IMG/VR virus record: IMGVR_UViG_3300044730_000687
Span: 1-52,623 of that record
Source of the DNA: a virus
Length of the DNA: 52,623 nucleotides
Reading direction: 5' to 3' (one strand)
Positions 3,542-52,623 of this stretch are shown one piece after another. Every line of letters begins with the position of its first letter. The stretch's first letter is position 1. The translations under genes and the position numbers were made by a program. The notes under the pieces were generated by a model, which worked only from the letters and a program-made list of their open reading frames with translations, did not search any database and was not told the origin of the DNA.

Positions 3542-4504
3542 TTATGTCATTCTGTCGATCAGTTGGATCAGGTAGGTTTTGTCCACTGCCGTTGCCGATT
3601 TCTCCTTCATTTTGTCCAGCAGTTCCTTGAAGTAGGCCACGTCAACGCCCGTCAACTGCTCCTCCAGCGTTGCGTAGTCGTTGAAATCGAGCGCAGCGCA
3701 TTGCATCACGATCTTGAGCAACTGGCCTGCCCCGATAGTCCACCCACGCTCGATGAACTTCCGGACGCGGAACACCGATGCCACCGGGTACTTGCTCCCG
3801 ATGTAGCGCAGTTCCTTCGTCATGATGCACTCCAACGCTTGCTGGTTCAGCGTAACGCGACGCTGCCAACTGGTCCAGTAGTTGGTGCAATGCACGAAGT
3901 CGTAGTTCTCGTGGATTTGGGCCGGGTCCCCGTAGAACCTGACCACAATCTGGATCTTGTCGGAGAGAGTGATTGCATTCGATGTCAGCCAGATTGGCCG
4001 GTATCGCTCCTTTTCGTCTTCCTTCTTCTCTTCCGCCTTGTCGGGTTCGGTCGCACCATCCAACACCTTCTTCACTTCCTCCGACACGACGCTGCCTTCG
4101 ATGTCGTTTAGGTATTCGGATGCGTTGCCTCCCTGCTCAAAGTATTCGTAAGGCTTGCTCTCGTTCTGGCTCCCGGCAATTCCGGCGCTCTTGACAATGA
4201 TTTTGACGCGCTCGTCTTCCCTGGTCTCGACGTAGATTTCAACTTCCTTGCCGTTGTGGAAGCGTGGCGATTTCGTGGCCTTGAACTGCTTGACGTAGTA
4301 CGCTGCCACCGCTGCCGCCGTCTCCCGGTTGCGGAAGTAGAAGTCGAAGTCGTTGACCTTGTTCTCGGTCAGCAACGTGACGATTGCCCCGCCCGTCAGG
4401 ATCGTGTTCTGATCTACCATCTTCCGCAGGCCTTCGTCCGTGATGCTTCGGCACCATGCGTCGAACTTCCGGCAGATGATCATGTTTGCGACTCGGGTTT
4501 TCAT
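3542..4504 (-). CDS. Phage nucleotidyltransferase-fold protein (Pol beta superfamily)
   Basis: A 320-residue protein. Near the N-terminus GG at residues 38-39 (ILTGGAIVTLL) is followed by NDFDFYF, with D52 and D54 as the acidic pair. This GG...DxD pattern defines the Pol beta/nucleotidyltransferase fold, which moves nucleotides onto nucleic acid, protein or small molecules using two metal ions. A Lys/Glu-rich linker lies around residues 172-187. The start at 4504 overlaps the stop of the ASCH gene (ATGA), making it the last member of the ParB-like/PP-loop operon. The substrate is unknown; the acidic pair makes it likely to be active. Confidence 0.8.
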   Translation of the reverse strand: MKTRVANMIICRKFDAWCRSITDEGLRKMVDQNTILTGGAIVTLLTENKVNDFDFYFRNRETAAAVAAYYVKQFKATKSPRFHNGKEVEIYVETREDERVKIIVKSAGIAGSQNESKPYEYFEQGGNASEYLNDIEGSVVSEEVKKVLDGATEPDKAEEKKEDEKERYRPIWLTSNAITLSDKIQIVVRFYGDPAQIHENYDFVHCTNYWTSWQRRVTLNQQALECIMTKELRYIGSKYPVASVFRVRKFIERGWTIGAGQLLKIVMQCAALDFNDYATLEEQLTGVDVAYFKELLDKMKEKSATAVDKTYLIQLIDRMT

Positions 4505-4902
4505 TTCAGTTTCAGCTTGTTGATGATGTTGGTTTCCACTTCGAATATCGAGAGCCTCGCTCGCATCGGCACGAACGGGAGTGCTCGTGCGTTCGCGAAC
4601 TTCAATCCGCACGGCCCGTCGAACCAGCGGCTCGCGCTCCGGTCAAACGTGATGCCCGTCATGTCCACCATCCCGATGATGCCGCCCGTCAGCAGTTCGT
4701 TCATCGCCGGAATCGCCACCTCGCACCTCGCCACGTTCACGGCCCACCAGCACGCCTGTTCGTACTCGCGCTTTAGCATGGTGCTGCTTGCGTGGATCAG
4801 GAGCGGGCCACGGTAGGGATGGGTCCACGTTCGATTCTCCACGTCCTTGCCGGCGTGCAGAATCATCCAGGCCCATGGTTGCCGAATCGAAATGCACTTC
4901 AT
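4501..4902 (-). CDS. ASCH domain protein
   Basis: A 133-residue protein. It has SIRQPWAWMILHAGKDVENR followed by YRGPLLIHAS and, later, GGIIGMVDMTG, the landmarks of the ASCH fold, a beta-barrel related to PUA that binds RNA or modified nucleobases; one member, YqfB, is an N4-acetylcytidine amidohydrolase. Stand-alone ASCH proteins are common in phages. ATGA overlaps on both sides (4899-4902 and 4501-4504) place it between the small 76-residue protein and the nucleotidyltransferase. A role in recognising or processing a modified nucleotide is inferred from context only. Confidence 0.88.
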   Translation of the reverse strand: MKCISIRQPWAWMILHAGKDVENRTWTHPYRGPLLIHASSTMLKREYEQACWWAVNVARCEVAIPAMNELLTGGIIGMVDMTGITFDRSASRWFDGPCGLKFANARALPFVPMRARLSIFEVETNIINKLKLK

Positions 4903-5129
4903 GCGTTCTTCCTTTGATCCATGTACTGCACGCACTCCTGCCACAACAACTCCGTCTCCTTCACTCCGTTTACTCTGGTTTGATTCACGGCGCAATCCGA
5001 TGTTCGAATCATGCACACCGCGAACCCTGCGTAGAAGGCGTCTTGCAATCCTTCCCATTGCACAGGTTCGCACCCGTCCGGGTAGCTTGCCTGCATCATG
5101 CGAATGAACTCGTCGCGGAGCGTGGTCAT
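4899..5129 (-). CDS. 76-residue protein in the PP-loop operon
   Basis: The start MTTLRDEFIRMMQASYPDG overlaps the stop of the DUF3440 gene (ATGA at 5126-5129). The body contains DAFYAGF and VQYMDQRKNA and looks like a small helical phage protein of the type with a DAFYAG(F/A) motif. The function is unknown. Coupling on both sides ties its dosage to that of its neighbours. Confidence 0.78.
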   Translation of the reverse strand: MTTLRDEFIRMMQASYPDGCEPVQWEGLQDAFYAGFAVCMIRTSDCAVNQTRVNGVKETELLWQECVQYMDQRKNA

Positions 5130-6331
5130 GCTTCCTGCCTTCTGGTTTTCTTGATGTCCATGTACTTCGCGTAAGCCTCGCTCTTTGGTTGGGTCAGTCC
5201 AAGCCCCTTGCACCAATGGTCGTTCCGGAGAATCACTTTGCACAGCCTTCTCCATGAAGGTGCCCAGTGCTTATCCTCAAGCACCTTCGGGGCTTCGTCC
5301 GGGATGCCGTTCACGTACCCTCTCCCTTTCCATCCCGTGATGAACGATTTGAACCTGCCTACGTAGTGCTCTCTCGTTTTGTTGGGCAGTGTGTTGAGCA
5401 GTAGGTTGCAGAAGCTCTTCCACGTATGCCCGTCCGGTTTGCTGATCTTGTTGTACCCTGTGATGTTCCCGGTTTCCTGCACGTACAACGATCCGCTGTT
5501 GGCTCCGCTCACCCTGGTTACCAGCTTGAACCACGTCTTTGGCTCCAGAATGTGGTACAGCCAAAGCCCCCTCCTCTGGTCGTCACCGTACGGTTGGCAC
5601 AACCGCATCTGACTGATCGTAAGCCCTGCTTGGTGCATTCGGTCGTATATTTCGTTGTGCGGTTTTTCGGGATAGTGCGCGTGATACCTCCAAATGTCCT
5701 CCGTTTTCCAGTCGTACACTGGATACACGTTGTAGAGACCTTCCTCCACTTTGGTTGTAAACAGCTTGCCTCCGTGGCATTCCTTCTTCCTGCTCGTCAC
5801 GGTCCGAAATCGGTTAAGGCTCTCGTCTGCCCTGATTCCGACGAACCCACAGCAATCCTTGCCTTGTCCATACCAGACGCCAAAGAGGACCATAAACTCC
5901 TCGAACTCCATTCTTTCCTCGAAGAAGTCGAAGTGCTTGGGGTCCGTTATGACGCCTTTGCGCTTCGGCACTTCTCGCACCCACTCCACACCCGGCTCCC
6001 AGCAGCACCACCTCGGGTTGAATGCGCTCACGGCATTCCTGAGCAGCATCGGTAGGCATACCCAATGAAGTTCGATGTTCTTTTCGTACATGTCGAACAT
6101 CTCGTTGGCGTGCTCTATCGTTTGACTGTACTGCGCCTCCAGGTCTATCAGCAGCACTCCTACGGTTCGGCCGCGCTTGATCGCCTCATCCATCACAAGA
6201 TGGAACATGACGCTTGAGTCTTTGCCTCCCGAGAAGCTGATGTAGATTCGTTCGAAGTTGTCGAACGCATACGCCACCCGTTCGCGTGCTGCCGTAAGCA
6301 CGTCTTTTTCTGAGTATCGCTTGATGCTCAT
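5126..6331 (-). CDS. DUF3440 PP-loop enzyme, PAPS reductase-like (IbrA-like)
   Basis: A 401-residue protein. SFSGGKDSS (PP-loop SGGKDS at 34-39) binds and pyrophosphorylates with ATP. GIRADESLNRFRT, VYPVYDWKTEDIW and QMRLCQPYGDDQRRGLWLYH are signatures of the DUF3440 branch that includes E. coli IbrA. Members are called phosphoadenosine phosphosulfate reductases, but true PAPS reduction is doubtful, because PP-loop enzymes also thiolate tRNA (TtcA, ThiI) or DNA (DndC). It overlaps the 142-residue gene by one base (TGATG), with the ParB-like gene before that, the same gene pairing as ibrA/ibrB. Its length is typical of the family and the motifs look intact. Confidence 0.88.
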   Translation of the reverse strand: MSIKRYSEKDVLTAARERVAYAFDNFERIYISFSGGKDSSVMFHLVMDEAIKRGRTVGVLLIDLEAQYSQTIEHANEMFDMYEKNIELHWVCLPMLLRNAVSAFNPRWCCWEPGVEWVREVPKRKGVITDPKHFDFFEERMEFEEFMVLFGVWYGQGKDCCGFVGIRADESLNRFRTVTSRKKECHGGKLFTTKVEEGLYNVYPVYDWKTEDIWRYHAHYPEKPHNEIYDRMHQAGLTISQMRLCQPYGDDQRRGLWLYHILEPKTWFKLVTRVSGANSGSLYVQETGNITGYNKISKPDGHTWKSFCNLLLNTLPNKTREHYVGRFKSFITGWKGRGYVNGIPDEAPKVLEDKHWAPSWRRLCKVILRNDHWCKGLGLTQPKSEAYAKYMDIKKTRRQEA

Positions 6332-6759
6332 CAGTACAGGTTCGCTTCGGTTTTGGATTGCGCGGCATCCATGGTCAGCTCCGGTTCGCTTCGGCCTTTC
6401 AGCCACTTGTTGAGAGCCCACAGAGCGGTGTAGTCCGCAATGTTTTGCTCCTCTTTTGAGAGCAGATGGAACCCGCCCCTGTAACAGGAAGGCAGCCCTT
6501 TAGCGATGCACGCCGAAGCCTGCCCAAGCCATGCGATTCTGTTCATGTTCTCGTTGGACAGGTAGTGCTCGCATGAGTTCGGCCATTCCTTGAGCACGCG
6601 CATGAGAGCGTCTCTAAACTCCTCTCCGTTTTTCAGGAATGCAGCGTACTCGGCTTCGCACTTGTCCTTGTCTGCCGTTTTCCTTCCGTTCGGCTTGTCG
6701 TTGTAGAACCCGGCAGGGTAGCACTCCCACTTGTCGTACGTGTGGAATATTCGTTTCAT
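6331..6759 (-). CDS. 142-residue protein between ParB-like and DUF3440 genes
   Basis: A mainly helical protein with conserved-looking aromatic and Cys residues (YDKWECYPAGFY, CEHYLSNENMNRIAWLGQAS, GLPSCYRGGFHLL). The segment RIAWLGQASACIAKGLPSCY is, in my recollection, recurrent in phage proteins that accompany DUF3440 enzymes. It has one-base overlaps (TGATG) on both sides. It may be an accessory or substrate-recognition subunit of the cassette; no activity can be assigned. Confidence 0.82.
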   Translation of the reverse strand: MKRIFHTYDKWECYPAGFYNDKPNGRKTADKDKCEAEYAAFLKNGEEFRDALMRVLKEWPNSCEHYLSNENMNRIAWLGQASACIAKGLPSCYRGGFHLLSKEEQNIADYTALWALNKWLKGRSEPELTMDAAQSKTEANLY

Positions 6760-7484
6760 CAGTCCTCCAGTTTTGTTTCTGATTCTTCGTCAACGAAGTC
6801 CTCGACATCCCAGGATTTCGAGAAGTCTTGATCCTTGAACATTTCGGCGAGCCCGGTGATTTGGCAGAGCCGCAGCACTTCGTCGGGGTCCATCCCAAGC
6901 TCACGGCTGATCTTGTCGTCTGACCAGTTCCGACGCTTTAACTCGACCACGATGTCCGACATCGACTCGACGCGATGCTTTCCGCGTGCCCTGTTGTGAC
7001 GAATCGTCGCCGCGATACGGTCTCCCTTGTCCGTTCTCCCCTCGTTGATCTCAACCACTGGAAGGTAACCGTGAACCCTTTCGGCCACTTCTTTCGATTC
7101 CTTGCCAACCCGATTTCGGTGGAAGCCGTCCACCACCTCGTTTCGGCCTTCCGTTTTGAACGTGACGATGGGCTGTGTGTATCCGTCTTCCAGAATGGAC
7201 ACCTTGAGCAGTTCCATTTCGGGCGGAGCCACGCTGTTTGGGTTGTAGTCGTTGGCTTGAATCCTGTCGTTCCTGACCCACAACACACAGTCCACAGGCT
7301 CGCTTGCGAACGGCGATACCTTGTGCAAGGCCCGCTTGATTTCGTTTATCGCCTCGATTCGTTCCGCAATAGGTAGCTCGGCGAGCTTTTGCACTTCGTC
7401 CAATATTCCGCTGGATGATTGATTTCTTTTACATTTAGGTTGTGGCGCATCTTGCAGTCCTAACGGTAGCTCTGTTTCTTGCAT
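6759..7484 (-). CDS. ParB-like nuclease/NTPase-domain protein (IbrB-like)
   Basis: A 241-residue protein. An N-terminal low-complexity leader is followed by a ParB/Srx-type domain (about 64-165: NDYNPN, TQPIV, VVDGFHR at 117-123, RHNRARGKH), then a helix-turn-helix (about 176-212: MSDIVVELKRRNWSDDKISR, then LGMDPDEVLRLCQITG). ParB-like domains bind CTP or ATP, and some family members are free-serine kinases. The arrangement with a DUF3440 enzyme copies E. coli ibrB-ibrA, whose products regulate surface-protein genes. Here it opens a coupled five-gene run after AAAGGAACC. It could act as a DNA-targeting subunit for the PP-loop enzyme. Confidence 0.85.
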   Translation of the reverse strand: MQETELPLGLQDAPQPKCKRNQSSSGILDEVQKLAELPIAERIEAINEIKRALHKVSPFASEPVDCVLWVRNDRIQANDYNPNSVAPPEMELLKVSILEDGYTQPIVTFKTEGRNEVVDGFHRNRVGKESKEVAERVHGYLPVVEINEGRTDKGDRIAATIRHNRARGKHRVESMSDIVVELKRRNWSDDKISRELGMDPDEVLRLCQITGLAEMFKDQDFSKSWDVEDFVDEESETKLED

Positions 7485-9516: not shown

Positions 9517-10122
9517 TTAACCCCATTGCTCCGCCATCGCGCTAGCAATGCCTGGATACGTCTGACTCCGCAGCCGCGCACGGTTGGGGCTTGGCCCGAG
9601 GCGGTTCTGGCCTGAGTCGGTTTGGTTAGCCCATCGCGCCACAGGCTTCCCATTGACGACCACGATCCGACCCGGGACGTGGAGAGTCGGAACCAGCTTG
9701 GGCAGGCCACGGAGCCACAGCCCTGTCAGCTTCGATGCGTCGTCCCCGAATTGGTACGGCTGGATCCATTGGTCCGCCGGCCGGATCCGCGAACCAATCA
9801 GGCCCACGGGATTCTCAACAGCCACCCGTGCAACCGGCGCGTCGAGGCACATGCGCGCAAACTCCAACGCCTGCTCAGTGAGTGCCGCCCGTTCGGGCCG
9901 GCGGCGGTTCCAATGCAGGCCGGATCCACACAGGTAGGTGCATGGCGGGTGGAGGATGGCAAGGTCCCAACCTCGTCGGAGCACGTCAATGACATCGCCC
10001 TGCATATGCCACGGGCTGCCATCGTCTGCCGGTTCGAAGTCGCAAGACCAAGCGGTGTGCCCGCGTGCTCTAAATGCCTCACGCACCACGCCGCTACGCT
10101 CGCATCCAACGAGGACCTTCAT
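9517..10122 (-). CDS. C5-cytosine methyltransferase-like phage protein
   Basis: A 201-residue protein. The N-terminus MKVLVGCERSGVVREAFRAR is followed by GHTAWSCDFEP, then HPPCTYL (Pro-Pro-Cys at 59-61) and VAVENPVG (E103-N104-P105). These correspond to the AdoMet site, the catalytic PC and the ENV-like motifs of the C5-methyltransferase fold. It is shorter than classical C5 enzymes and lacks an obvious target-recognition domain, as is usual for this small phage family. The likely role is self-methylation against restriction, but activity is unproven. It is coupled by ATGA to the preceding gene. Confidence 0.75.
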   Translation of the reverse strand: MKVLVGCERSGVVREAFRARGHTAWSCDFEPADDGSPWHMQGDVIDVLRRGWDLAILHPPCTYLCGSGLHWNRRRPERAALTEQALEFARMCLDAPVARVAVENPVGLIGSRIRPADQWIQPYQFGDDASKLTGLWLRGLPKLVPTLHVPGRIVVVNGKPVARWANQTDSGQNRLGPSPNRARLRSQTYPGIASAMAEQWG

Positions 10123-10609: not shown

Positions 10610-10999
10610 TCAGACCGTTTCGAAGAACTCGTCCACGTTCGGGCGCTTGGGCCAGTTGGTAATGACCCCGCATGCGTCGATGTTCATGATGATGTAATCC
10701 CCGTACTCCCCGGGGATCAGACCGTGCGGAACGTAGTCGAATTCCATTTTCGCCACTTCCTTCCCGCTGGCGTCGCGCAAGGTGTACTCGCCTTCATCGC
10801 ACACCTTCATGTGGACGTTCGCCACGTAGTTCGGCCAGTTGCGGATGGTTCCGGTGTCAATGTCCACCGTAATGGCCCAAACGTCTCCCGACCGCTTCGG
10901 GAAGTCGTACGGCATGTCCTCGTTTTCAAATCGGACCGGAACCTTGATGTCCACTGTCGCGATTTCGATTTCTACTCGCTGCATTACGGTCGCTTTCAT
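10610..10999 (-). CDS. Hypothetical protein coupled to the SNF2 helicase
   Basis: A 129-residue protein, ATGA-coupled to the helicase gene (10996-10999). It is beta-rich and acidic (KATVMQRVEIEIATVDIKVP, GDVWAITVDIDTGTIRNWP). An internal near-repeat, TGTIRNWPNYV and CGVITNWPKRP, suggests two copies of one small unit. The function is unknown; it could be a partner of the helicase. Confidence 0.78.
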   Translation of the reverse strand: MKATVMQRVEIEIATVDIKVPVRFENEDMPYDFPKRSGDVWAITVDIDTGTIRNWPNYVANVHMKVCDEGEYTLRDASGKEVAKMEFDYVPHGLIPGEYGDYIIMNIDACGVITNWPKRPNVDEFFETV

Positions 11000-13056
11000 T
11001 GTTCCGTTTCTTTCGCTGCAATGTTTCGTGTTGCGCTTTCGACAAGTGCTAACGGGAGTTGCTTGGCGTACCGTCGCACAAGCCTCGCTCCCAACACAAC
11101 TTGTTTGTCGCTCAATCTTCCGCGCATCGCCAAGTCCTTCCCGATTGCGCTGTCCAGCTTGTTGAACCCCGCCCCGTCGATCTTCCGCGCCCCGTCGCAC
11201 GACCCAGCTAGCGATTGCAGGGCCAACCGCACGGCATGCCGTTGTTCGTCCGTCACGAGCAAAGCGTGGTCCTCAAGCTGTTTCCGGGTCGCCAGCGGCT
11301 TCCATTCCTTCGCGACAATCGGCGGCTCTTCCATCACCCGAGCCTTCGTCATGGCGTCCAGCGCACGCTCCGCAAGCTCGGCCTTCGCGACGCACGTCTT
11401 GCCCATCTGCGCGTCAATCGTTCCTGGCACAACGCACACCTGAACCGTGACGTTGTCCTTCTGTCCGATCCGGTGTGCGCGATCTTCGCATTGCACCATT
11501 TTCGATGGCACCCAATCGAACTCATGGAAAACGACAAGCGTTGCTGCCGTCAGTGTCAGTCCCTCGCCCGTTGCTCGGATGCTTCCGAAGAACACGCGGC
11601 ACGTCGGATCCGTCATGAACCGATGCACCCGCTCGTCCCGCAACGCCTGCCCGTGCGCCCCGTGGACCAAGACCGACTCCGACCGAAACGCCGCGTGCAA
11701 CACTTCCAACGCTTCCGTGTGATGCGCGAACACCAACACCTTCCGAGTCTCCTCCAGTTGCTCCCGCAAATGCTCAATCATCTGCCCCACCTTTGCGACT
11801 GCCGTTTCCTTCCGGATTCGCGCCATCTCGGCGAACTCGAATCCGCTCACTTCCTTCAATCGTTCGATGGCCTTTTTGTATTCGTCCTCGTTGTCGCCAG
11901 CCCGTGCCACAACCAACGCCGCCTGTGCCGCCGTCCTGTCTGTCTCGGTCTTGGCCAGCACTTCCTCCTCTTGTCGGATCAGATGCGCCATGCCTTCCGC
12001 GCTGAACTCCACGACGGTCCTGGTCTTGGGCGGCAGTTCGGTCAGCACGTCCTTCTTGAGCCTCCGGATCATGATGTTCTCGCGGAGGTACTGTTGAAGG
12101 TTCGCCAATCCATCCTGGCTCGCCTCCGTCATGCCCGCGCCCGGGACGTACCGCATGCCAGCCAACTTTTGCAGGGCCGATTTGCTCCGGAACTTCTCGC
12201 GATCCAACCAATGAAGTACGGGGAACATTTCTTCGATACAGTTCTCAATCGGTGTCCCGGTCAGCGCCAGTTTGCACTTTGCCGGGATTCCGCTGGATGC
12301 CAACTTCGGATCTTCTTCGCGCTTCGGTTTGTATCCGAATATCGCTTTCGTTCGTTGCGCTGTAGCTGACTTCGCATTGTGACATTCGTCTACGATTACG
12401 CAGTCCCAGTTCCTTTCGTTGAGCCGGTTCTGGTACTTTTTGCAAATGTCAAAGTTGATGATTACCACGTCGGCTGTCGGGAATTCCTTGTCGGCAATTC
12501 CGACCGTGAGATTCCGGTTGACCAGCCACTTCCTGCACTCCCGCCACCAGTTAATTTTTAGCCCGGCCTTGGTGATTACCAAAATATTTGTCCATTCCTG
12601 ATGCGCGTTGCATACTCCGATTGCTTGGATAGTCTTACCTAATCCCATGACATCCCCGATCAGCGTCGAGTTTCGTTTCGTTGCGTACGCGATGCCTGCC
12701 CTTTGGAACGGCATGTAGGCCAGCCCTTCGGGGCACGGCACGTCAATCTCCGCGTCGTTCGCCCGGCTCGCATCCACCGCCGCCTTCCGTTCGCTCGCGA
12801 TCTCGGCCGGAATCTCGCGCCACCACGTTGCCTCCCAATCGCCGCCTTCGTAGTCGTTCTTCCCCACGCCAATGCCGGCTGCCTTCAACTGCTCTTTGCC
12901 AGCCCTCCAAGCGTTCCAAAACCGTTCGCTGTGCTCGTCGCCGTTCAGCTTGCACTTCCGCAGGATGCGAGGCCCGTACTTGGTCGGAACCTCGCGAGCC
13001 GTTCCCCACTGGAGCAACGCCTCAAGTTGCGCGATGATTTCTGGCGCGAGTTGCAT
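10996..13056 (-). CDS. SNF2-family DNA helicase/translocase
   Basis: A 686-residue protein. Helicase motifs appear in order: I GDVMGLGKT (134-142), II VIVDECH (DECH at 223-226), III LALTGTPIEN, then in the second RecA domain VLVFAHHTEAL and motif VI QCEDRAHRIGQ. This is the SMARCAL1/HARP-like set for ATP-driven translocation on double-stranded DNA and fork remodelling or annealing; such enzymes are frequent in phages. The N-terminal 110 residues are phage-specific. The start at 13056 follows TAGGAGC, in which AGGAG overlaps the stop of the pentapeptide gene. No nuclease domain is visible. Confidence 0.95.
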   Translation of the reverse strand: MQLAPEIIAQLEALLQWGTAREVPTKYGPRILRKCKLNGDEHSERFWNAWRAGKEQLKAAGIGVGKNDYEGGDWEATWWREIPAEIASERKAAVDASRANDAEIDVPCPEGLAYMPFQRAGIAYATKRNSTLIGDVMGLGKTIQAIGVCNAHQEWTNILVITKAGLKINWWRECRKWLVNRNLTVGIADKEFPTADVVIINFDICKKYQNRLNERNWDCVIVDECHNAKSATAQRTKAIFGYKPKREEDPKLASSGIPAKCKLALTGTPIENCIEEMFPVLHWLDREKFRSKSALQKLAGMRYVPGAGMTEASQDGLANLQQYLRENIMIRRLKKDVLTELPPKTRTVVEFSAEGMAHLIRQEEEVLAKTETDRTAAQAALVVARAGDNEDEYKKAIERLKEVSGFEFAEMARIRKETAVAKVGQMIEHLREQLEETRKVLVFAHHTEALEVLHAAFRSESVLVHGAHGQALRDERVHRFMTDPTCRVFFGSIRATGEGLTLTAATLVVFHEFDWVPSKMVQCEDRAHRIGQKDNVTVQVCVVPGTIDAQMGKTCVAKAELAERALDAMTKARVMEEPPIVAKEWKPLATRKQLEDHALLVTDEQRHAVRLALQSLAGSCDGARKIDGAGFNKLDSAIGKDLAMRGRLSDKQVVLGARLVRRYAKQLPLALVESATRNIAAKETEQ

Positions 13057-13060
13057 GCTC

Positions 13061-13678
13061 CTAGAATTGGTGAGCTTCGGCCTCGGCTCGCGTAATGTAG
13101 AAGTGAATCCCGCCAGCGCACTCTTGCCATCGGTCTTCGCACCACGCATCGCATCGCACGGTCAGCCCTGGGCTGTATTTCGTTCTTACATCTCGATCCG
13201 AGTATCCTTCGCCTTCCAGCACCTCCACGAATTCTGCGCGGCACTTGCGGCCCGATGCGTTAGATCGGCGAGCGTTTGGTGGAATTCTCAGTTTTACGAT
13301 TGCTCCTCCCCTGACTTTTTTCCATCCAATCAAATCGCCTTCGGGCAAAATGATTATTTGAGCAATGGCCGTTTCCGCATTTTTGGCACCACTCAGGTCG
13401 GCACCACTCAGGTCGGCACTCCTCAGGTCGGCACCACTCAGGTTGGCACTCCTCAGGTTGGCACCACTCAGGTCGGCACTCCTCAGGTTGGCACCACTCA
13501 GGTTGGCACTCCTCAGGTCGGCACTCCTCAGGTTGGCACTCCTCAGGTCGGCACCACTCAGGTTGGCACCACTCAGGTCGGCACTCCTCAGGTCGGCACT
13601 CTTGCCCGCTTCGCGGCCTTGCAGCCACATTGCATGGGCTTCAAGGATTTGTTTGAGTTCTTCCGGCGTTGGTTTCAT
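13061..13678 (-). CDS. Pentapeptide-repeat protein with C-terminal domain
   Basis: A 205-residue protein. Residues 1-27 form a helix ([20 protein letters not shown]). Residues 28-97 are 14 consecutive pentapeptides of only four kinds ([20 protein letters not shown]), predicted to form a right-handed quadrilateral helix. The C-terminal 100 residues form a compact domain ([33 protein letters not shown]) like those found after pentapeptides in phage DUF5758-type proteins. Some pentapeptide proteins mimic DNA and protect gyrase; that role is unproven here. A promoter (13702-13730) lies directly upstream. Confidence 0.92.
13386..13600 (-). repeat. 15-bp tandem DNA array encoding pentapeptides
   Basis: About 14 back-to-back 15-bp units. 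On the minus strand each unit reads (G/A)ACCTGAGTGGTGCC or (G/A)ACCTGAGGAGTGCC, so only three nucleotide positions vary across the array. Third codon positions are otherwise unvaried. That means very recent expansion or ongoing gene conversion rather than old, selected protein repeats. Confidence 0.95.
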
Positions 13679-14866: not shown

Positions 14867-15161
14867 GTTTCGTTTCCTCTCGCTTCATTGCCACGTAACG
14901 GGTCCACCATTCCAACGCGCTGTATTCCCTCACGACCTTGACGTGCCAACAGGCCAGTCGTCTGTCTGGCTTTGCTCCGCGCTCAAGCAATCCCGCGTAG
15001 TGAATCCCGAAGTCTTCGCACCCGCACTTTCCGTTTCCTCCGTACCACGTCATGTCCACCCGATGACGAATGCTTGGCCGGCTCCTGCTTTGCACCCAAT
15101 ACACGCCAAACTCGCCTTCGACAGGTTCGACGACCGGGAGCAATGTCGGTTTCCTTTTCAC
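14580..15161 (-). CDS. SWIM zinc-finger protein with long out-of-frame tail over the HNH gene
   Basis: A 193-residue protein. The SWIM motif CxC...CxH (C46, C48, C71, H73) lies in residues 46-73; such fingers bind DNA or proteins. The start at 15161 is a GTG overlapping the stop of the PP-loop gene (GTGA); ATG 15182 is an alternative. From about residue 100 the frame runs 287 bases across the HNH gene in another frame, and that part looks like non-selected sequence. Either the true gene lost its stop, or the two are read as overlapping genes. Confidence 0.7.
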   Translation of the reverse strand: MKRKPTLLPVVEPVEGEFGVYWVQSRSRPSIRHRVDMTWYGGNGKCGCEDFGIHYAGLLERGAKPDRRLACWHVKVVREYSALEWWTRYVAMKREETKRDRETKRAETQSPVDHCIPGTNGTGTAGPGGRIFQACQEVQADPSGVSTMQPTTDSGCPSYPRPKRDAVARLASLESGVPRVSRMDWKQPGKIAP

Positions 15162-16033
15162 TCGCAATATCCGCTCATGCACTTTGCCCCGTCGTCGTCT
15201 TCCTGAAACATGAAGTCAAATCCGGATTGAACGCCTCCGCGTAACGTCTTTGACCATCGTACCACGTCGTCGATTGTTCCGATTGTATATTCGACTCCTT
15301 TGCGATTCGTGTATCGTTTAGAATGCTGGGCATTTGGAATTGCTGTAGCCGGAAAAAAAGTAGCGATTCCCGCGTGTGGTCTGGCTAATCCTACTAGTCT
15401 CTCCCATTCTCTGTACTCGTCTATTACTTCCGGTCGCTTTTTTGCGGTCCTTCGCACGTCTTCTTTTCCGCTCATGCAGCACAGTCTGCACCCGACGCGC
15501 TTCCATCCCTGCTTATACAAAGGATTGATTGGTATTCCCCATTCTTTATGCGCGTCCCAAACGTCTCCGATTGACCAATCAAGCAACGGGCGCCTCACCT
15601 TAGACTTCATTGGTTCGCTGTAATCCCATTCGTCCAACATTGATCGTTGCACGGATTCATCGCGGCGAACGCCGCTGTGAGAAATCACTTCGTAGCCATC
15701 GAGCCACAGCTCTTGAATATAAGCGATGCTTGGACGGATCTTAAGCCAGTCGGTACAGAATCGAGCCATGGAAGAAGGAAAGCGTTGCTTCCAAATGGCC
15801 AACCGAAGAAAACCCATCGACTTCATCCACCGTACCGGAGCGACGCCCCTAGCCTGACCGTACGCATCCAAGGCACGAATCTGTTCGTATACCTCCGGAT
15901 ATTCGTTCTCCGTGTCAGCAAATGAACCTCGGATTGATTCAATCGAATAGCCCGACTCGTTGATTGCCCACCCCCACAAAGCCGTCGAGTCTTTGCCTCC
16001 GCTCAACCCAAAATGGTTTATGGTTTTTGACAT
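15158..16033 (-). CDS. PP-loop ATPase, phage PAPS reductase-like
   Basis: A 291-residue protein. PP-loop SGGKDST at 11-17; FCTDWLKIRP; HSGVRRDES; RRPLLDWSIGDVWDAHKEWG; INPLYKQGWKRVGCRLCC. The Cys-rich segment after RVGC and the C-terminal KCMSGYCE may hold a metal or Fe-S cluster. The family is called PAPS reductase/sulfotransferase in phages and includes DndC-like DNA thiolation relatives. This is the second PP-loop enzyme in the genome (the other is at 5126-6331) and belongs to a different branch. Its substrate is unknown. Confidence 0.88.
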   Translation of the reverse strand: MSKTINHFGLSGGKDSTALWGWAINESGYSIESIRGSFADTENEYPEVYEQIRALDAYGQARGVAPVRWMKSMGFLRLAIWKQRFPSSMARFCTDWLKIRPSIAYIQELWLDGYEVISHSGVRRDESVQRSMLDEWDYSEPMKSKVRRPLLDWSIGDVWDAHKEWGIPINPLYKQGWKRVGCRLCCMSGKEDVRRTAKKRPEVIDEYREWERLVGLARPHAGIATFFPATAIPNAQHSKRYTNRKGVEYTIGTIDDVVRWSKTLRGGVQSGFDFMFQEDDDGAKCMSGYCE

Positions 16034-52496: not shown

Positions 52497-52623
52497 TGTA
52501 ACCACCCGCCACAACCCCCGCGTGGGGGCTGGGACGGAGGGTTAGGGGCGGAAGATCGGGGCCATGGAAAACTTGCCGTGCGCGTAGACGTATTCCCCGT
52601 CGCAATCCCGTCCGATCTTCTTG
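52497..52623. repeat. Terminal direct repeat, copy 2
   Basis: Identical to bases 1-127. It contains the stem-loop seen at 18-34 (here 52514-52530). The circle closes at 52496/1. Confidence 0.97.
52542..52623 (-). CDS. Partial duplicate of the 75-residue gene (3' end)
   Basis: The C-terminal part of the gene at 46-273, present a second time only because the window runs past the circle closure. It is not a separate gene. Confidence 0.95.
   Translation of the reverse strand, partial: KKIGRDCDGEYVYAHGKFSMAPIFRP

Follow-up and report, generated by a model that had tools for sequence, protein, structure and literature searches.

A conserved IbrB-P0002-IbrA gene module in a complete phage genome and its possible role as a DNA-associated PP-loop modification enzyme

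INTRODUCTION

Which genes of a tightly packed run belong together, and what might their products do? The question is raised by six consecutive minus-strand genes at positions 3542 to 7484 of IMG/VR virus record IMGVR_UViG_3300044730_000687, which was analyzed here over its whole length of 52,623 bp (the window). It comprises a complete phage genome, which is bounded by a 127-nt terminal direct repeat (positions 1 to 127 and 52497 to 52623) and carries nearly all of its genes on the minus strand. The run opens with genes for a ParB-like protein (P0001), a 142-aa protein (P0002), and a DUF3440 PP-loop protein (P0003) and continues with three further genes (P0004 to P0006; Table 1). P0001 and P0003 are relatives of IbrB and IbrA, and pairs of this type are carried by phages and by bacteria from a wide range of phyla, among them Escherichia coli K-12 on its chromosome (ybdN/ybdM). 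IbrA commonly bears the annotation of a 3′-phosphoadenosine-5′-phosphosulfate (PAPS) reductase or is listed among sulfur auxiliary genes, and a true definition of the module to which it belongs removes that misleading annotation. In the open-access literature, we found no described biochemistry of IbrAB and no phage system consisting of a ParB-like protein and a PAPS reductase.

RESULTS AND DISCUSSION

IbrB, P0002, and IbrA form one conserved unit in close viral relatives

When IbrA (P0003) was used to search viral contigs, 402 relatives were obtained, and the best 80 of them were kept, so that the 100% figures given here describe near relatives. Partner genes were found within flanks of up to 8 kb by use of profiles built from these 80 loci. 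P0002 adjoined IbrA at every one of the 80 loci, with strand and order kept, and a ParB-like gene was present at 78; the other two contigs begin inside the module. The reciprocal search, starting from the P0002 family, recovered IbrA at 78 of 78 loci and the ParB-like gene at 77 of 78, with many contigs common to the two sets. When both sets were considered, the ParB-like gene and P0002 made up a single reading frame at 64 of 155 loci, with a linker of ~18 to 32 residues between the parts. The two were separate at the remaining 91, and at all 91 the open frame of P0002 began no more than 4 nt past the stop of the ParB-like gene, either abutting or overlapping it. These results show that the ParB-like IbrB, P0002, and IbrA constitute one conserved unit. 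P0002 appears to be an undescribed third subunit of an IbrAB-type module, and the module is best read as a version of IbrAB to which this subunit has been added, the IbrA/IbrB pair itself being already known. Microcystis phage Mwe-JY13 carries the three genes in the same order as the window (IbrA, 69.5% identical); its module is followed by YqaJ/RecT recombination genes, whereas that of the window is followed by the ASCH and nucleotidyltransferase genes. The P0002 of Mwe-JY13 is labeled “ParB/sulfiredoxin” in GenBank and showed no similarity to ParB here.

The pair is an ancient core, and P0002 is an accessory subunit

Among the best 80 IbrA relatives in bacterial genomes, all had a ParB-like gene, nearly always adjacent or one small gene apart and mostly in the order A-B. 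P0002 was present at 4 of these loci. Because the other 76 hold IbrA and IbrB without P0002, the pair represents the ancient core. The enterobacterial loci are flanked by recognizable ahpC and ahpF genes, a LysR gene, and an aminotransferase gene, and presumably correspond to ybdN/ybdM of E. coli K-12. In E. coli, ybdN and ybdM encode DUF3440 and ParB-like proteins under the control of the repressor YbdO/CitR (PMC9068703). Both ybdN/ybdM and the IbrA/IbrB pair of E. coli (ECOR-9 island and prophages) resemble the window in that homologous DUF3440 and ParB-like proteins are encoded by adjacent, overlapping genes, but their order is A-B and they lack P0002, whereas the order in the window is B-P0002-A. 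P0002 is likewise missing from divergent phages of Escherichia, Streptococcus, and Flavobacterium. On a tree built from 57 divergent IbrA sequences, the distribution of P0002 required three changes, always linked to IbrAB, and fell into three groups: the clade of the window; a Pseudomonas phage; and a group made up of a Mycobacterium/Pseudoalteromonas phage set and Planctomycetota. P0002 is thus an accessory subunit that has been gained or lost more than once and was never seen here without IbrA.

Properties of the three subunits

P0001 matched PHROG 2159 (“ParB-like”; 5e-71) and, below the curated cutoff, Pfam ParB_N (E value, 1e-3), and IbrB of an Escherichia phage matched the P0001 profile at 1e-82. 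The structural model of a fused homologue resembled ParB, Noc, KorB, and sulfiredoxin in fold and included a helix-turn-helix region; like the partition protein ParB, IbrB is predicted to combine a nucleotide-binding fold with a helix-turn-helix. The motifs NxYNPN, DGxTxP, DGFHR, and RHNRARG were nearly invariant across 72 divergent IbrB homologues. No ParA partner was present among the genes scanned. P0002 had no family match in Pfam, PHROG, NCBIfam, or PADLOC, and its sequence profile found nothing significant in the PDB. It is predicted, with high confidence in the fused homologue (predicted local distance difference test score [pLDDT] for the block mostly 91 to 99), to be all helical, and it carries the motifs HTxDKWEC and EHYLTNxxMNRIAWLGQA. 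When the fused ParB-P0002 model was compared with PDB and BFVD by Foldseek, only ParB-type proteins were among the matches listed. The possibility that P0002 is a portion of E. coli IbrB was also tested, and no such portion was found.

P0003 matched DUF3440 (1e-35) and PAPS_reduct (2e-13) in Pfam and is 44% identical over 98% to the annotated IbrA of Escherichia phage PhiR5_2. Homology and co-occurrence bear out the initial annotation in its equation of the ParB-like and DUF3440 genes with IbrB and IbrA and mark them as a real functional unit. Among 61 nonredundant IbrA sequences, the SGGKDS PP-loop and the GIRADES..R motif were nearly invariant, and the nearly invariant residues besides SGGKDS were D63, E65, R167, E170, S171, and R174. 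No cysteine was conserved throughout these sequences; the best column reached 82% and reads alanine in the members from Gram-positive phages, Gaia, and XCL1123. Judged by the features of CysH, IbrA has the PP-loop and the substrate-binding motif and lacks a catalytic cysteine that is conserved through the family. Against the NCBIfam equivalog model for PAPS reductase, it scored 38 bits, the cutoff being 254. Since IbrA retains the PP-loop and yet has no cysteine conserved throughout, and since the NCBIfam score is far under the cutoff, we consider it unlikely to act as a PAPS reductase, which agrees with the earlier proposal that the module does not simply reduce PAPS.

Structures were predicted for sequences from the window and from viral contigs only, and our structural comparisons of IbrA used an AlphaFold model (pLDDT, 77.5). 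Its target-normalized TM-scores were 0.51 to 0.56 with CysH, 0.62 with CysD, and up to 0.67 with the PP-loop domain of flavin adenine dinucleotide (FAD) synthase. The ATP sulfurylase CysD and FAD synthase are adenylyltransferases. IbrA has the PP-loop fold in common with all three proteins, and its GxR..ES..R motif sits in the shared domain; it differs from them in its low identity (~11 to 20%), its extra DUF3440 region, its lack of a universal cysteine, and its obligate ParB partner. The missing universal cysteine and the modeled fold make ATP-dependent adenylyl transfer likelier than PAPS reduction as the activity of IbrA.

Helicases recur beside IbrAB

In several other lineages from multiple phyla, IbrA or IbrB has an SNF2-type helicase gene as its immediate or overlapping neighbor; these lineages are phages of Streptococcus, Lactobacillus, and Flavobacterium, gut Alphaproteobacteria, Bacteroidia, a Desulfobulbus, and an Azoarcus. 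Within the clade of the window itself, several phages have a helicase of a second SF2 family directly next to IbrA. With both families counted, helicase adjacency was gained or lost ~10 times on the IbrA tree. The phage in the window has an SNF2 helicase of its own (Pfam, 6e-27), which is not adjacent to the module. Genes flanking the module in phages include those for DnaB, RecT, RusA, a PD-(D/E)XK nuclease, and the DNA polymerase III alpha subunit.

A proposed mechanism and its alternatives

We consider it possible, at a probability of roughly 40%, that the module encodes a three-subunit machine of the IbrAB type that acts as a PP-loop modification enzyme associated with DNA and gated by a nucleotide. 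IbrB, together with P0002 as its arm, would bind DNA and a nucleotide and would serve as the loading or switch subunit, the all-helical P0002 would work on or with IbrB, and the two together would bring IbrA to its substrate. With ATP, IbrA would then adenylate a group of a nucleic acid or nucleotide and in this way activate it. The replication-gene context and the recurrence of adjacent SNF2 and SF2 helicases in other lineages suggest that this substrate may be DNA during phage replication. A role in nucleic acid modification is plausible. More doubtful is the fully specified form of the proposal. In it, the undescribed machine would consist of a DNA clamp that has the ParB fold, is gated by a nucleotide, and has P0002 built in as an adaptor, and of a PP-loop adenylyltransferase that has no essential cysteine and is brought by the clamp to phage DNA. 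It would perform a novel modification of DNA or nucleotides, and other phages as well as bacteria would possess versions coupled to a helicase.

Several observations weigh against a DNA-modifying, adenylylating machine. Adenylyl transfer was itself deduced from the absent universal cysteine and the fold; the folds of CysH, CysD, and FAD synthase are closely related, and TM-scores obtained at a pLDDT of ~77 discriminate weakly among them. C245, which is conserved at 82%, may be important in the clade of the window. Many phage genes of other kinds also have replication genes around them. The chromosomal ybdNM-type loci of enterobacteria argue for a role of the pair beyond phage replication.

One alternative is regulatory. 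“Co-activators of prophage gene expression” is a widespread annotation of IbrAB proteins and reportedly goes back to Sandt et al. in 2002 (cited in PMC10434257). On this account, IbrB would bind promoters, with IbrA and P0002 modifying or assisting it, and phage or host genes would be switched on as the eib genes of E. coli reportedly are by IbrAB. The helix-turn-helix region of IbrB and the antirepressor genes near some IbrAB copies fit such a role, but a pure regulator would not be expected to keep a PP-loop active site nearly unchanged, and the obligate pairing extends across many bacterial phyla without a known common promoter or regulated gene; we regard coactivation as unlikely. Also unlikely is a conflict or counterconflict system in which host defense would be blocked or evaded through the synthesis, breakdown, or sensing of a nucleotide by IbrB and IbrA. 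The ParB/Srx superfamily does include NTP-consuming or nicking enzymes that are discussed as antiviral effectors (PMC12839542, PMC10853773), and a fixed core surrounded by variable partners (a helicase, a cupin, a 124-aa protein, and P0002), of which P0002 and the helicase were repeatedly gained and lost, would suit a conflict system. However, the core has no effector or nuclease domain, its chromosomal location is conserved in enterobacteria, and PADLOC returned nothing beyond weak matches of IbrA to DndC (3e-7) and BrxP (8e-7). Nothing in our analysis shows an anti-defense role.

Those same two matches bear on sulfur chemistry. If IbrA were an analogue of DndC or SspD and IbrB an analogue of DndB, the module might insert sulfur into DNA in the manner of phosphorothioation. 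The Dnd and Ssp systems resemble the module in joining a ParB-superfamily protein, as which DndB is classed (PMC10853773), to a PAPS-reductase-like PP-loop protein; the window encodes a second PAPS_reduct PP-loop protein, which is SspD-like (PADLOC, 2e-21; PHROG 424), and in an E. coli ybdO mutant, ybdNM and the cys sulfur genes rise together, a correlation only (PMC9068703). In contrast to DndC, which has a sulfur-receiving cysteine dyad (PMC10853773), IbrA has no invariant cysteine and carries a DUF3440 domain. Moreover, the phage genome has no cysteine desulfurase (Aminotran_5), although the host could supply one, and DndD/E and SspB/C, for which no dedicated models were used, were not seen beside the module. 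Sulfur insertion into DNA is therefore distinctly improbable. Less credible still is a PAPS reductase that serves as an auxiliary metabolic enzyme and raises sulfur assimilation by the host. It would account for the naming of such genes as PAPS reductase auxiliary metabolic genes in databases (PHROG 2302) and in some phage papers (PMC10434257, on a different phage gene) and for the PAPS_reduct match, but a thioredoxin-dependent reductase needs the cysteine that is not universal here, the equivalog score is low, and the strict partnership with a protein of the ParB fold, seen in bacteria as well as viruses, speaks against such an enzyme. The module as defined here, i.e., a core pair, a third subunit that is apparently obligate in many phages, and a recurrent helicase partner, provides a concrete set of proteins, including a natural fusion protein, with which to find the function.

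The 76-aa, ASCH, and nucleotidyltransferase genes are neighbors

All six reading frames of the run were confirmed, and successive genes overlap by 1, 1, 4, 4, and 4 nt, just as the initial annotation had it. Overlaps of 1 or 4 nt are found in 19 of 69 neighboring gene pairs genome-wide (14 of these pairs lie outside the module), and ~5% of shuffles produce a run of five. Overlaps of this kind are thus usual in the genome and by themselves no proof of coupling; because they occur throughout the genome, we rejected them as a sign of functional coupling.

Gene content tells the same six genes apart. The proposal that six families co-occur in a strictly coupled system held for the ParB-like, 142-aa, and DUF3440 genes and failed for the 76-aa, ASCH, and nucleotidyltransferase genes, none of which was found at any of the 80 nearest viral IbrA loci. 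Nor did the ASCH and nucleotidyltransferase genes occur at any of 10 annotated phage loci or of the 80 bacterial loci. Searches in the reverse direction agreed: relatives of the nucleotidyltransferase had a nearby IbrA at 0 of 13 loci and relatives of the ASCH protein at 1 of 14, where a divergent IbrA lay 3.4 kb away. In the two contigs whose IbrA is most similar to that of the window (82%), the downstream genes are wholly different. We therefore rejected the six-gene system, and the three additional genes are mere neighbors of the module. P0004 had no match in Pfam, PHROG, or NCBIfam. The ASCH assignment of P0005 is reasonable, given a match to PHROG 3193 (6e-40) and a clear SIRQPWA...RGPLLIHAS motif, with the Pfam ASCH match at merely 4e-3. 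For P0006, assignment as a probable nucleotidyltransferase is likewise reasonable: PHROG 4400 matched at 1e-62 and the Pfam NTase model at an E value of 0.02, and TGG...DxD was invariant across 13 relatives. Its sequence profile gave only chance-level matches in the PDB. Upstream of the module lie a gene resembling PHROG 757 (“DNA methyltransferase”) and a gene for a pentapeptide-repeat protein.

Table 1. Positions of the module, its neighbors, and other features named in the text (window coordinates unless a locus number is given)
Feature	Position	Strand	Assignment and basis
P0001, IbrB-like ParB/sulfiredoxin fold with C-terminal helix-turn-helix region, 241 aa	6759..7484	-	Core subunit; PHROG 2159, fold, motifs
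P0002, all-helical (predicted), 142 aa	6331..6759	-	Third core subunit; co-occurrence and fusion; no family match
P0003, IbrA-like DUF3440 PP-loop ATP-pyrophosphatase, 401 aa	5126..6331	-	Catalytic core; DUF3440, PAPS_reduct, motifs, fold
P0004, 76 aa	4899..5129	-	Neighbor outside conserved module; no family match; 0/80 IbrA loci
P0005, ASCH-domain protein, 133 aa	4501..4902	-	Neighbor outside conserved module; PHROG 3193, ASCH
P0006, probable Pol-beta-type nucleotidyltransferase, 320 aa	3542..4504	-	Neighbor outside conserved module; PHROG 4400, TGG...DxD
“DNA methyltransferase”-like gene	9517-10122	-	PHROG 757
SNF2 helicase	10996-13149	-	Pfam
Pentapeptide-repeat protein	13061-13678	-	
Second PAPS_reduct PP-loop gene	15158-16033	-	SspD-like
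P0002 of Microcystis phage Mwe-JY13	L083 5576-6001		
SNF2-like proteins with Walker A apparently lost	L256 6754-8004; L259 1050-2297; L266 6676-7944		
Gaia/XCL1123 cupin and small open reading frame	L086 6308-7207, 7829-8143; L089 6311-6703, 7475-7831		
~124-aa protein (Clostridia)	L248, L257, L258, L261-L264, L267, L269-L272, L276, L277		No Pfam match

Other variable partners

At three loci in proteobacterial metagenome-assembled genomes, the protein encoded directly upstream of IbrA is SNF2-like and has apparently lost its Walker A motif (GAKK or GVKR in place of GTGK), which suggests that these proteins may be inactive, structural helicases; the apparent loss, with GAKK for GTGK, applies to some alphaproteobacterial copies. 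At 14 Clostridia loci, a protein of ~124 aa is encoded between IbrA and IbrB. A cupin of the ectoine-synthase type is fused to IbrB in Mycobacterium phage Gaia and is encoded by a separate gene between A and B in XCL1123; each of the two also has an extra small open reading frame that resembles the C terminus of IbrA.

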